Shown one piece after another: positions 29,325-32,849 of a stretch of DNA of 33,555 nucleotides; position 1 is the stretch's first letter, and each line of letters starts with the position of its first letter. Under the pieces are notes generated by a model, which ran no database searches, had not been told where the DNA came from, and worked only from the letters and a program-made list of their open reading frames with translations. The translations under genes were made by a program, and so were the position numbers. The DNA lies in contig CALXBD010000042.1 in the NCBI GenBank assembly GCA_944386445.1, positions 1 through 33,555 on the forward strand, written 5' to 3'. Source of the stretch: an uncultured Clostridia bacterium (GTDB taxonomy: Bacteria > Bacillota > Clostridia > Oscillospirales > Ruminococcaceae).

Positions 29325-29337
29325 ACCAAAACGGCCT

Positions 29338-30114
29338 TTACGAGCCTGTCGAGCGGTAATGCCGCAGCCCAAACCGCCAGAAAAGATAGGCCGGTATCAG
29401 GAAAATCAGGGCAGCCAGCGGTGACAAAGCGTTCCAGATGCTGTCTGTCCGACCAAGCAGGAACAGCAGCGGATAATATTGAATCATGGCCATAGGAATG
29501 ACAAAGGTCCAGAATTTTAAGATTGCCTTGCCGTAAATCACTGCCGGGTAAGCACCAAATTCCCGCCCGCCATCAATAAAAATATTTAGCACTTCCAGTC
29601 CCTCAATGGTGAAAAAACTGGCGCCAGCGTAAAAAAGAAACAATCCTGCAAAAATAGCCGTTCCTCCCAGCAGCATTCCACAGAGGGTCAAAACCCGAGG
29701 AAGAGTCCATTCTACCCCGCAGGTAAGAATAGCATAGCAAAAAACCAACAATGCCTGAAAATATTTTCCCAAGCGGGAGAAATCGATTTGGGATACCATT
29801 ACCTGAAAGATCGTACTGCGTGGCCGAATCAAAATACGGTCAAACTGTCCGTTTCCGATAAGGGTGGGAAATCGGTCAAACCCTCGGAAGAAACACTCAC
29901 AAAAAGACAAAGACAGCATCACTGATGCGAAGCAGATGAGCACTTCCTGATAAGTAAAACCCTCCACGGCGTGGAACCGGTCAAAAAGAAAATATATGCT
30001 CAAAAATGCCGAAAATGCTGTTAGAAACTGGCCCCAAAAGGTCATCCAAAAAGAGGCCGGATACTGCATCGTACTCCGCAGATGGATGGAAAAATAACGT
30101 CCATAAAGTTTCAT
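29338..30114 (-). CDS. ABC-2 type exporter permease (COG3694-like)
   Basis: 258 residues with six hydrophobic segments. The pattern YGRYFSIHLRSTMQYPASFW at the start, GNGQFDRILIRPRSTIFQVM in the middle and INIFIDGGREFGAYP-like IFIDGGREFGAYPAVIYGK later is what I recognise as the second permease of COG4586/4587/3694 transporters. It would pair with the permease encoded upstream and the ATPase at 30944. The cargo is unknown. It ends the operon. Confidence 0.85.
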   Translation of the reverse strand: MKLYGRYFSIHLRSTMQYPASFWMTFWGQFLTAFSAFLSIYFLFDRFHAVEGFTYQEVLICFASVMLSLSFCECFFRGFDRFPTLIGNGQFDRILIRPRSTIFQVMVSQIDFSRLGKYFQALLVFCYAILTCGVEWTLPRVLTLCGMLLGGTAIFAGLFLFYAGASFFTIEGLEVLNIFIDGGREFGAYPAVIYGKAILKFWTFVIPMAMIQYYPLLFLLGRTDSIWNALSPLAALIFLIPAYLFWRFGLRHYRSTGS

Positions 30115-30118
30115 GTTC

Positions 30119-30931
30119 TCAGCCTCCTTGTACTACAGCACGTTTCAGAGCGTTCTGAAAGATCAATGCGCCCAGAGCAATCAACGTACCTGTCCAGAAT
30201 ATCTGCAACAAAACTCCCCACAAGATTTCCATCCCGGCAATATCACCGCTGTAAATCCGGAAAGGTAAATTCTGCGCCGATGCAAAGGGTAGAAATTCCA
30301 TAAATTTCTGAATTCTATCCGGCAAAAACGGCAGCGGAATCAAAGCCCCGGAGCAGAATTCTGACAAAGAGCCAAAAATCATTCGTAAACCCAGCGGTGA
30401 CAGGGTATAAAAGGTTAAGCCATACACAATCATGGTCATAGAAACCATCAGCAAGAGGGCCATCCCCATGGTAACTAGAAACAGCGCAAAAATTGGCAAG
30501 TTGACTGGCAATTTCATGTGAAAAGGTTCCGGCAGTAAAAAGGCGATAACCAATACCGGCAAACACCGGAGCGCCGCTTTTGCCACTCGACTAGCCATAC
30601 TGCGGGTGAACCAAAACAGGTACAAATTCATGGGCCGACAAAGCTCATACGCCACATTTCCACTGGTGATGGCCTCAAAAATATCCCCATCAAAATACCA
30701 GCTCATATAAAGGGTTAAAAATGCCTGCTGAAGCCAGATGTAGGAGACCAGGGCGGAGAATTCCATAGGAAACGCCTCCGGATTTGCCTGATAAAAGGCC
30801 TTGTACAGAAGGATTTCCATGAATCCCCAGAAAAACTGGGTAGACAGCCCAGCCAGTGCCGCCAGTCGGTATTGCAAGCCATTGATGAACCGAATACGAA
30901 AAATGGAACGGTATTTGGCAAGCGTACTCAT
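30119..30931 (-). CDS. ABC-2 type exporter permease (COG4587-like)
   Basis: 270 residues from ATG 30931 (MSTLAKYRSIFRIRFINGLQ), eight bases after GGGGG; a GTG nine bases earlier in frame overlaps that site. Six hydrophobic segments are seen, with the middle-loop pattern ITSGNVAYELCRPMNLYLFW shared by first permeases of this exporter type. It lies between the ATPase gene (12 bases upstream) and the second permease (4 bases downstream), a compact three-gene export operon. Confidence 0.87.
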   Translation of the reverse strand: MSTLAKYRSIFRIRFINGLQYRLAALAGLSTQFFWGFMEILLYKAFYQANPEAFPMEFSALVSYIWLQQAFLTLYMSWYFDGDIFEAITSGNVAYELCRPMNLYLFWFTRSMASRVAKAALRCLPVLVIAFLLPEPFHMKLPVNLPIFALFLVTMGMALLLMVSMTMIVYGLTFYTLSPLGLRMIFGSLSEFCSGALIPLPFLPDRIQKFMEFLPFASAQNLPFRIYSGDIAGMEILWGVLLQIFWTGTLIALGALIFQNALKRAVVQGG

Positions 30932-30943
30932 CTGTGGCACCCC

Positions 30944-31918
30944 CTAAATCCGGTATTCACGGTAGAGATTGGCGACAATTTCGTCAATGGGCGGATCCTC
31001 TACTGACACATCCCGCAGTTCCACCTGAGAGGACAAGCTGGAAATAGCCTGAGAGACCGAAAGCATTTCGGGAGTCAACAGCAAAACGCCATGATTCTCG
31101 CCCTTTTCCTGCCAGGAAAGCCCTTCCGGCAATTCCGGGGTATTGCCCTGGTACTCGATCCGAAGGGTTTTTCCGCTAGAAAACTGCTTTTTGAGCCCTT
31201 CCAGAGTCCCGTCCAGCAGGATTTTTCCTTTTCCGATCAGGATCACCCGGGAAGCCAGTGCTTCAATATCCTGCATATCATGTGTGGTCAGGATGACGGT
31301 GGTTCCCCGGCGCTGGTTTAGTTCCCGGATAAAGCTCCGGACCGCCAGCTTGGAAACAGCATCCAGACCAATGGTAGGCTCGTCCAAAAAGAGAATCTTC
31401 GGGCTGTGCAGCAGAGAGGCGGCAATTTCGCACCGCATTCGTTGGCCTAAAGAAAGCTGCCGGGTGGGGGTTTTGATAATCTCTGAAAGATTTAAAAGCT
31501 CTGTCAGTTCCCGGAGGTTCCGGCTGTATTCCGCCTCCGGAACCGCGTAAATATCCTTTAAAAGCTCAAAGGAATCGATGACCGGCACATCCCACCAAAG
31601 CTGGGACCGCTGACCAAAGACTACTCCGATATCCCGGACATGACGGGCGCGGTCCTTCCACGGACACAGGCCGTTTATTTCACACTGCCCGCTGTCGGGG
31701 GTCAAAATACCGGATAGGACCTTGATGGTACTGCTTTTTCCGGCGCCGTTGGGGCCGATATAGCCCACCATTTCTCCCTCCCGGATGGTGAAAGAGATGT
31801 CGTTCAGGGCATGAACCAAATTGTACTGCCGCTTCCAGAGCGCTTTGACCGCCTCCTTCATACCGGCATTTCGCCGGGCCACCCGGAAGGTTTTGGAAAT
31901 GTGTTCCACCGTAATCAT
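30944..31918 (-). CDS. ABC exporter ATP-binding protein (COG4586-like)
   Basis: 324 residues from ATG 31918 after AAAGGAGGAATTCAG; upstream frame extension to 32020 would read through the leader hairpin. Walker A GPNGAGKS is at 55-62, the signature LSLGQ at 155-159, Walker B LFLDEP with Asp179-Glu180, and a switch His in TTHDMQD. VFGQRSQLWWDVPVIDSFELL is characteristic of the COG4586 subgroup. It powers the two ABC-2 permeases encoded next. Expression is probably set by the leader region at 31936-32034. Confidence 0.93.
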   Translation of the reverse strand: MITVEHISKTFRVARRNAGMKEAVKALWKRQYNLVHALNDISFTIREGEMVGYIGPNGAGKSSTIKVLSGILTPDSGQCEINGLCPWKDRARHVRDIGVVFGQRSQLWWDVPVIDSFELLKDIYAVPEAEYSRNLRELTELLNLSEIIKTPTRQLSLGQRMRCEIAASLLHSPKILFLDEPTIGLDAVSKLAVRSFIRELNQRRGTTVILTTHDMQDIEALASRVILIGKGKILLDGTLEGLKKQFSSGKTLRIEYQGNTPELPEGLSWQEKGENHGVLLLTPEMLSVSQAISSLSSQVELRDVSVEDPPIDEIVANLYREYRI

Positions 31919-31935
31919 CTGAATTCCTCCTTTAC

Positions 31936-31973
31936 AAAACGAAAGGCCCCTGACCGCAGTCAGAGGCCTTTCG
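31936..31973 (-). terminator. Leader terminator/attenuator before the ABC exporter operon
   Basis: On the minus strand, CGAAAGGCCTCTGAC-TGCG-GTCAGGGGCCTTTCG (one mismatch in a 15-bp stem) followed by TTTT. It lies between the stop of a 16-residue leader peptide (31984) and the ribosome site of the ATPase gene, the usual place for a transcription attenuator. Confidence 0.75.
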
Positions 31974-31983
31974 CAGTTTCCGA

Positions 31984-32034
31984 TTATCCCTGCAAAAAAG
32001 CGGCCTTCTGACGATAGCACAGGTTCTTCTTCAT
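31984..32034 (-). CDS. Putative leader peptide MKKNLCYRQKAAFLQG
   Basis: A 16-residue reading frame from ATG 32034 to TAA 31986-31984 with its own ribosome site (AAAAAAAGGAGCGG). It is the first frame after a consensus promoter and ends about ten bases before a terminator hairpin. The arrangement resembles leader peptides that sense ribosome stalling and set read-through into resistance or export genes. The peptide sequence itself matches none that I can recall. Confidence 0.55.
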   Translation of the reverse strand: MKKNLCYRQKAAFLQG

Positions 32035-32067
32035 ACTGACCGCTCCTTTTTTTAAAAATGGAATTTT

Positions 32068-32096
32068 ATTATATAGTTTTCAATTTATAATGTCAA
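32068..32096 (-). promoter_or_regulatory. Consensus promoter of the ABC exporter operon
   Basis: Minus-strand TTGACA (32096-32091), 17-base spacer, TATAAT (32073-32068): a perfect sigma-A consensus in an AT-rich stretch, 34 bases before the leader-peptide ATG. Such a strong promoter followed by a terminator fits control by attenuation. Confidence 0.85.
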
Positions 32097-32150
32097 TATT
32101 TTAATCAAAATTTTGTAATAAAATACAATTTTATTTCTAAAAACACAGCG

Positions 32151-32849
32151 TTATTCCCGAAAAATTTGATATAATTCTTCCAGTTTGCAAATTCGAGAAC
32201 AGTAATCGTGTCCCCATTTGCTTTCGTCGAAAAGCAGCACTGCCCGGCGGCTCCCAGCTATATAAGCGCGTTTCACCAAGGCTTCTTCCTCATTGGGCTC
32301 AGTAGCACCGTTTTCGCTGCTGACGCCGCGGCTGGAAAAAAATGCGTAATCAGCACAATGGGCACGGACAAAATCGCAGGCTGCCGTCCCGATAAAAGAT
32401 TTGGAATGGGGCCGCACCCGGCCGCCGGTGGTAAAAACCGTAAGGCTCGGAAAATCACTGAGCACATCCGCAGTCCGGATTCCGTTGGTAATGATGGTCA
32501 GCTCTTGAAACGCTCCCAGCCGCTGGGCCAGACGCAGCACCGTTGAACTGGAATCCAGAAACAAGGTCATCCCATCGGAGATCAGCGACAAAGCTTGTTC
32601 AGCCAGACGCTCTTTGGCGGCGGCGTTCTCCCCCGCCCGAATGGTAAAGGGGGATTCCGATGCGGCTCCCCGCAAGAGTGCCGCTCCGCCATGGGTGCGA
32701 CGAATCAACCCTTCTTTTTCCAGAAACTGAAGATCCCGCCGAATCGTCGGCGCACTGGCATACAAAGCGTCGCATAGTTCCGAAACGGATACTGCCGTTT
32801 TTCGCTCCAAGAGGGTAAGGATTTCTTTCTGACGGATATACCCGGACAT
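32151..32849 (-). CDS. DeoR-family transcriptional regulator
   Basis: 232 residues. The N-terminal winged helix-turn-helix has the DeoR signature (VSELCDALYASAPTIRRDLQ then FLEKEGLIRRTHGGA); the C-terminal part is the sugar-phosphate sensor with LFLDSSSTVLRLAQRL, TIITNGIRTADVL and FTTGGRVRPHSKSFIG. The start follows GGAGGAAAAG. It is divergent from the class II aldolase-like gene at 33024, which it probably represses until a phosphorylated sugar is present. Confidence 0.92.
   Translation of the reverse strand: MSGYIRQKEILTLLERKTAVSVSELCDALYASAPTIRRDLQFLEKEGLIRRTHGGAALLRGAASESPFTIRAGENAAAKERLAEQALSLISDGMTLFLDSSSTVLRLAQRLGAFQELTIITNGIRTADVLSDFPSLTVFTTGGRVRPHSKSFIGTAACDFVRAHCADYAFFSSRGVSSENGATEPNEEEALVKRAYIAGSRRAVLLFDESKWGHDYCSRICKLEELYQIFRE

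Follow-up and report, generated by a model that had tools for sequence, protein, structure and literature searches.

The exporter operon described here raises the question of whether the short stretch between its promoter and its first gene works as a ribosome-sensing switch and, if it does, which kind of ribosome stall it would answer to. The operon lies on the minus strand of a 33,555-nucleotide stretch of DNA from an uncultured Clostridia bacterium (Ruminococcaceae; contig CALXBD010000042.1), which was analysed as a whole and is called the window below. In our reading the element is probably a ribosome-mediated transcription attenuator, with the exporter being induced by an early stall in the leader.

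Parts of the element and of the exporter operon

An earlier note on this DNA had placed on the minus strand a TTGACA-17-TATAAT promoter, a leader ribosome site with a 16-codon ORF, a hairpin with a T-run and the ribosome site of an ABC exporter ATPase, and all of these parts are present as placed there. The sigma-70/A-type promoter (32068–32096) is the only perfect TTGACA-(16–18)-TATAAT sequence in the window, and one of 100 shuffled windows contained such a match; transcription would be expected to start near 32061, 7 nt after the −10 box. The leader ribosome site, AAAAAAAGGAG (32043–32053), is strong as judged from sequence and stands eight bases ahead of the ATG of the leader ORF (31984–32034), which encodes the peptide MKKNLCYRQKAAFLQG in 16 codons and ends in TAA. 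A short ORF with its own ribosome site is thus found between promoter and structural gene, as in leaders of the vmlR/bmrB type. Just upstream of the promoter we noticed by eye the inverted repeats TTGTATTTTATTACAA and CAAAATTTTG (window 32106–32128), which, lying between the promoter and a DeoR-family gene, may possibly be an operator.

The ORF is followed by a hairpin (31940–31973, from sequence and fold) of 15 bp, one of them G-U, with the 4-nt loop TGCG and a predicted stability of −29 kcal/mol with flanks, and directly 3′ of it by the T-run TTTTGT (31934–31939). Sequence and fold therefore place an intrinsic terminator ahead of the structural gene, with a moderate T-run; this tract, TTTTGTAAAG, is short and interrupted and is the weakest part of the layout. 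Its T-score was 3.45 after the full stem and 3.34 after GGCC, at the low end of the values of five gene-end terminators from relatives (3.34–4.96), and the tail of one of these five (L149) is nearly identical to it. A simple terminator scan of the window did not pick up the leader hairpin and T-run. None of 200 shuffles folds as stably as the leader RNA as a whole (z = −5.5). The ATPase ribosome site AAAGGAGG (31926–31933) comes next, with the ATPase ATG at 31918. An alternative ATPase start, the GTG at 32020, was discarded, as it has no visible ribosome site ahead of it and the congeners are homologous only from 31933–31934 onwards.

The presumed regulated gene encodes the 324-aa ATPase of the exporter (30944–31918, minus strand like the two genes that follow), which matches ABC_tran; its best NCBIfam match, drrA, was below the cut-off, and its best PDB matches were nucleotide-binding domains of ABCA-type lipid transporters. 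The second gene (30119–30940, 273 aa) is a presumed permease from its position, its product having no Pfam or NCBIfam match at E 0.001. The third (29338–30114) encodes a 258-aa permease with the domain PF06182 (ABC2_membrane_6) and without a PDB match by sequence. The operon had been assigned to the COG4586/4587/3694 type: our domain searches support ABC_tran and PF06182 and do not back the COG numbers themselves. The exporter is of another transporter type than BmrC/BmrD of Bacillus subtilis.

Alternative helices and the position of the ribosome

A pairing of the leader coding region with the terminator hairpin had been suggested as a check of the attenuation layout. Running this check, we found such a pairing of 18 bp, beyond what chance would give, together with an alternative helix that sequesters the leader ribosome site. 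In this alternative, the predicted anti-antiterminator, segment 1 (32038–32049, including the leader ribosome site) pairs with 32005–31994, the core of segment 2, which begins with the third base of codon 10 and reaches codon 14. In the antiterminator, segment 2 (31990–32012, codons 8–15) pairs with segment 3 (31976–31959), which without its first three bases is the terminator 5′ arm; codons 8–15 thus pair with all 15 bases of that arm and with the three bases preceding it. The helix of 18 bp is interrupted by one bulged A and one 4-base bulge, and has an energy of −25.0 kcal/mol as a duplex and −24.6 in the nascent transcript.

This strength was equalled by none of 5,000 dinucleotide-shuffled leaders and by four of 5,000 random synonymous recodings. 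Among the 1,043 ATG-started 51-mers of the window the leader alone reached the value, and no match was found among 33,296 window 51-mers outside the element (every second one, both strands); in a random draw of 5,000 window 51-mers, which included the element itself, seven did so. The anti-antiterminator duplex has −17.4 kcal/mol; 19 of 5,000 synonymous recodings and 12 of 5,000 shuffles were at least as strong. According to the folds, anti-antiterminator, antiterminator and terminator are mutually exclusive and follow one another in the classical order. As expected of an attenuator, the antiterminator overlaps both the leader ORF and the terminator, and the anti-antiterminator involves the leader ORF and its ribosome site. 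With three exclusive helices and an antiterminator beyond chance, the layout of ribosome-mediated attenuation that had been proposed for this locus is well supported in silico. In translational attenuators of the ermC type, it is the ribosome site of the structural gene that the leader RNA sequesters; here, the full fold paired the ATPase ribosome site with the 5′ end of the transcript, with little gain (−51.3 vs −50.5 for a shorter stretch).

The same logic of 1:2, 2:3 and 3:4 helices with a leader peptide is known from the E. coli trp attenuator, which differs in having regulatory Trp codons and an amino-acid signal. It differs also in that its antiterminator is not notable in our duplex test (1,746 of 5,000, not significant), unlike that of the window leader; because this control was unremarkable, the test serves here as a gauge of pairing strength and not as a calibrated attenuator detector.

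We then considered which stall would matter, by masking the bases that a ribosome would cover, with its edge set 16 nt past the first base of the P-site codon (edges of 14 and 18 nt were tried too), and folding the rest up to the terminator loop. With the 16-nt edge, the antiterminator kept −24.6 kcal/mol with the model ribosome at codons 1–2, −21.1 at codon 3 and −16.0 at codon 4, and fell to −8.4 at codon 9 and to −1.4 or weaker from codon 13. The model thus predicts that only stalls at about codons 1–4 leave a strong antiterminator, and therefore a sensor of arrest at initiation or early elongation. These energies suggest a sensor of the kind seen in Bacillus vmlR rather than one that reads the RQK motif of the peptide or a shortage of charged tRNA. 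In unconstrained folds the anti-antiterminator returned with the ribosome at codon 5 of the nascent transcript, and partly at codons 4–6 of the complete one. In the complete transcript, every ribosome position from codon 1 to codon 16 still let the terminator form, wholly or partly, which means that antitermination has to act kinetically. When the stop codon occupied the P site, the terminator arm was clipped by the mask and the terminator did not form. Even without a ribosome, the core antiterminator pairing is present (−28.9) in the nascent RNA folded as far as the terminator loop, and hence the state without translation depends on the order of folding.

The same attenuator might instead sense an elongation arrest within the peptide, caused by a macrolide at RQK or by chloramphenicol or linezolid at Ala-Ala. 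We take the RQK of codons 8–10 to fit the +X+ macrolide arrest motif, and the AA of codons 11–12 presumably fits the context of chloramphenicol and linezolid. Induction of bmrCD by antibiotics that target protein synthesis, as given in the part of the report considered here, also speaks for this idea (PMC4191407). However, a ribosome with its P site at codon 9 or later covers most of segment 2 and leaves an antiterminator of −8.4 or weaker, so the RQK motif comes too late to free it, and we regard arrest within the peptide as unlikely.

Shortage of a charged tRNA had likewise been put forward as the signal; such an attenuator would follow the logic of trp and his. A stall at the two adjacent Lys codons (2–3) and the Asn after them would indeed expose the antiterminator, but the leader has no run of one regulatory codon beyond this early AAG AAG, and the downstream genes encode a transporter, with no biosynthetic gene among them. 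An amino-acid attenuator is therefore not favoured, and we consider it very improbable.

The leader and the operon in relatives

The ATPase is present in all seven genomes of the genus examined, including that of the window, and is 79–89% identical in the other six. All six of these congeners have it without the window's leader; their operon is preceded by the tail end of another gene and by a terminator-like hairpin. Loose filters pick out a few short frames ahead of their ATPase, but the order promoter, ribosome site, ORF and terminator was absent there. At the nucleotide level the six match the window from 29335–29342 up to 31933 (up to 31934 in one congener, and as two pieces in two of them), so that homology ends at the ATPase ribosome site. 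The leader being missing from six of six congeners and the homology stopping at this site, the promoter, leader and attenuator are lineage-specific among the genomes examined, and so they would form a module that has joined, or has grown next to, a genus-wide operon. The surroundings differ as well: the DeoR-family gene directly upstream (32151–32849) had no counterpart in 12 relatives at E 1e-60, which marks the neighbourhood as rearranged or acquired, and no match to the flanking AraC, ADP-ribosylglycohydrolase and PfkB genes was seen in the six congener stretches of 14–20 kb.

Such a rearrangement might have left behind a strong promoter and, next to it, a terminating or stabilising hairpin, without any regulation. 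The new neighbourhood and the moderate T-run fit this explanation, as does the origin of the contig in an incomplete assembly (85.9% complete, 154 contigs). The pairing between codons 8–15 and the terminator arm, however, is not expected by chance, and an unregulated operon seems to us highly unlikely.

The short ORFs that the loose filter listed before the congeners' ATPase were rejected as leaders, as all but one begin with TTG or GTG. The frame MKKNRSITVPVFLTDF of the congener locus L023, which lies between 102 and 51 bases ahead of the ATPase start, resembles the window leader in its length and first four residues. This 16-codon ATG frame was also rejected, since it spans a terminator hairpin and the nearest GGAG is 13 or more bases away; its likeness to the window leader is probably due to chance. 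In the last ~88 bases before the ATPase start, the six congeners (L018–L023) share a 5′UTR hairpin with CCUCC/GGAGG inside an outer CCGyU/AryGG helix. It differs from the hairpin of the window and directly precedes the ATPase ribosome site; in the congener alignment 2 of 25 predicted pairs, one of them in the shared hairpin, are changed on both sides. In these congeners the hairpin may serve as a different regulator of the operon.

Conservation of the peptide had been named as a further check, and its lack as one part of a refutation; our searches found no leader-like relative. Searched as a protein against 20 relatives, the leader peptide had a single weak match (E 0.79), which fell within a frame of 241 codons. 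Allowing two mismatches, a degenerate peptide pattern matched 14 times in 394 genomes of the order, the window included, vs nine times for the reversed control pattern, and none of the 13 matches outside the window had an SD-led start within 15 codons upstream. The same was true of the four stretches that matched the exact pattern in a species-wide genome collection, a search that may omit records very near the window; in viral contigs the exact pattern had no match. At the nucleotide level, plasmids and phages gave short matches only (E 0.7 or worse). Among 396 family genomes, 51 had matches to the leader DNA at E up to 0.01, the window's own included and the others of 59 bases or less. A covariance model of the element, built from the window sequence entered twice and run against 198 genomes, reported 25 genomes at E up to 0.1, again with the window's own, and 28 matches outside the window; the 19 of these that were inspected resemble the ends of genes, with terminators of the ordinary kind.

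Conservation of leader or structure, a supporting but not a required feature of the vmlR/bmrB type, was thus not seen in the genomes searched. Without peptide or RNA relatives there is no conservation or covariation that could serve as comparative proof. Non-conservation of the peptide is nevertheless weak evidence against function, because with a stall at the start the RNA switch may matter rather than the peptide.

We also examined 75 regions upstream of ATPase homologues. They comprise 15 of the 25 places of a first homologue set (the ten weakest, L031–L040, were dropped) and, from 65 further places, 27 new loci and 33 stretches, after the removal of four duplicates and of one place whose match starts at residue 48. 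A terminator-like hairpin stood close upstream in 15 of the 75, the window included (2–6 in 12 shuffle sets), and a promoter preceded the hairpin in three, again with the window (0–1 in shuffles). The hairpins inspected differ in sequence, and some of them may be terminators of the preceding gene. Their excess fits a remark, in the part of the ABC-leader study considered here, on a possible tendency of this gene family to attract attenuators (PMC2965389).

Among the 27 regions inspected, the one most like the window was L030, with an SD-led mini-ORF (MIAKVILL) and a later hairpin. It precedes a distant homologue (L030:150–347, G406; 49% identical over part of the ATPase) and holds an AT-rich hairpin and a strong terminator; TTGACA and TATAAT boxes lie upstream at a non-standard spacing, and no convincing antiterminator pairing was found in it (−5.6). 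In L028, the 260 bases before position 1501 contain a TATAAT box (by eye), a structured 5′UTR and a terminator-like hairpin 40 bases before the ATPase homologue. This 5′UTR had no Rfam match at the gathering score and is possibly an unclassified RNA regulator.

The homologues bear on a further explanation, in which the element is a leaderless attenuator or riboswitch-like RNA and its short ORF an accident. SD-led short ORFs do arise by chance, and in the regions inspected the terminator-like hairpins before the ATPase mostly come without a leader-like ORF. Against this, no Rfam family, be it riboswitch, T-box or known leader, matched the element at or above its gathering score, and permissive matches fell far below; the best, RF02637 (E 7e-6), had 28.4 bits vs a gathering score of 440, was carried by AT-rich and hairpin stretches, and was rejected. 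Moreover, it is within the ORF and its ribosome site that both the antiterminator and the anti-antiterminator are found, and we judge an accidental ORF to be quite unlikely.

Proposed mechanism and known attenuators

We propose that RNA polymerase would use the promoter and begin near 32061. When the 16-codon leader is translated normally, ribosomes would reach the stop codon and cover segment 2, leaving segment 3 to pair with segment 4; the terminator would form and most transcription would stop before the exporter. When the leader is not engaged by a ribosome, segment 2 would instead tie up the ribosome site in the anti-antiterminator, and the terminator would again be free. A stall on the start codon or within the first few codons after it would break the anti-antiterminator and leave codons 8–15 bare, and these would capture the entire terminator 5′ arm in the antiterminator (about −25 kcal/mol), so that RNA polymerase would read on and the exporter would be made. 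We infer that the trigger would be agents that stall initiating or early-elongating ribosomes, such as pleuromutilins, lincosamides, streptogramin A and possibly tetracyclines, and that the exporter would handle such a compound.

Both halves of this scheme have precedents. B. subtilis vmlR has an experimentally tested uORF and a three-helix logic, with inducers expected to stall ribosomes at initiation (PMC9226507). As described in the sections of that report considered here, its uORF likewise lies inside an anti-antiterminator that overlaps an antiterminator, followed by an intrinsic terminator. vmlR, however, encodes an ABC-F resistance factor behind a three-codon uORF, whereas the window has a membrane exporter behind a 16-codon leader, and only the vmlR leader has an additional pause hairpin and an SD-sequestering hairpin before the gene (PMC9226507). 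In B. subtilis bmrBCD, attenuation through an experimentally tested leader ORF precedes an ABC multidrug transporter that ribosome-targeting antibiotics induce, and the part of the report considered also gives a predicted anti-antiterminator, antiterminator and terminator, as in the window (PMC4191407). It differs in the length of BmrB (53 codons), in the position of the terminator inside the BmrB coding region and in an additional control by AbrB (PMC4191407). The ABC-leaders of Naville and Gautheret (2010) are predicted premature terminators and antiterminators before ABC transporters, one of them ahead of a multidrug export operon in lactobacilli (PMC2965389). Unlike the element studied here, they are described as conserved sequence and structure motifs with a mechanism to be determined, and the part of the paper considered names no leader peptide (PMC2965389).

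Since leader-ORF attenuation (bmrBCD) and the three-helix logic of an early stall (vmlR) are already known, the element would be a new example and not a new principle. In the open-licence PMC literature, mostly judged by title and start of the abstract, we found no report of a ribosome-sensing leader on a PF06182-type exporter, and no paper on two or more of COG4586/4587/3694. More tentatively, and with less than even confidence, we suggest a fuller reading: a lineage-specific module, recently acquired or newly made and joined exactly at the ATPase ribosome site, might use a mimic of the terminator 3′ arm in the leader gene to sense that initiating ribosomes are arrested, and so switch on an uncharacterised ABC-2 exporter.

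As six congeners have the operon without the switch, the locus would be a clear-cut example of one lineage having gained (or kept) a regulatory RNA. The signal that induces a transporter is a strong hint at its cargo, and if initiation-stage ribosome arrest induces this operon, transport of ribosome-targeting compounds becomes a testable candidate role for the exporter. If the reading is true, the exporter family would be a candidate for the export of such compounds in one species, and other members of the genus would control their exporter differently.
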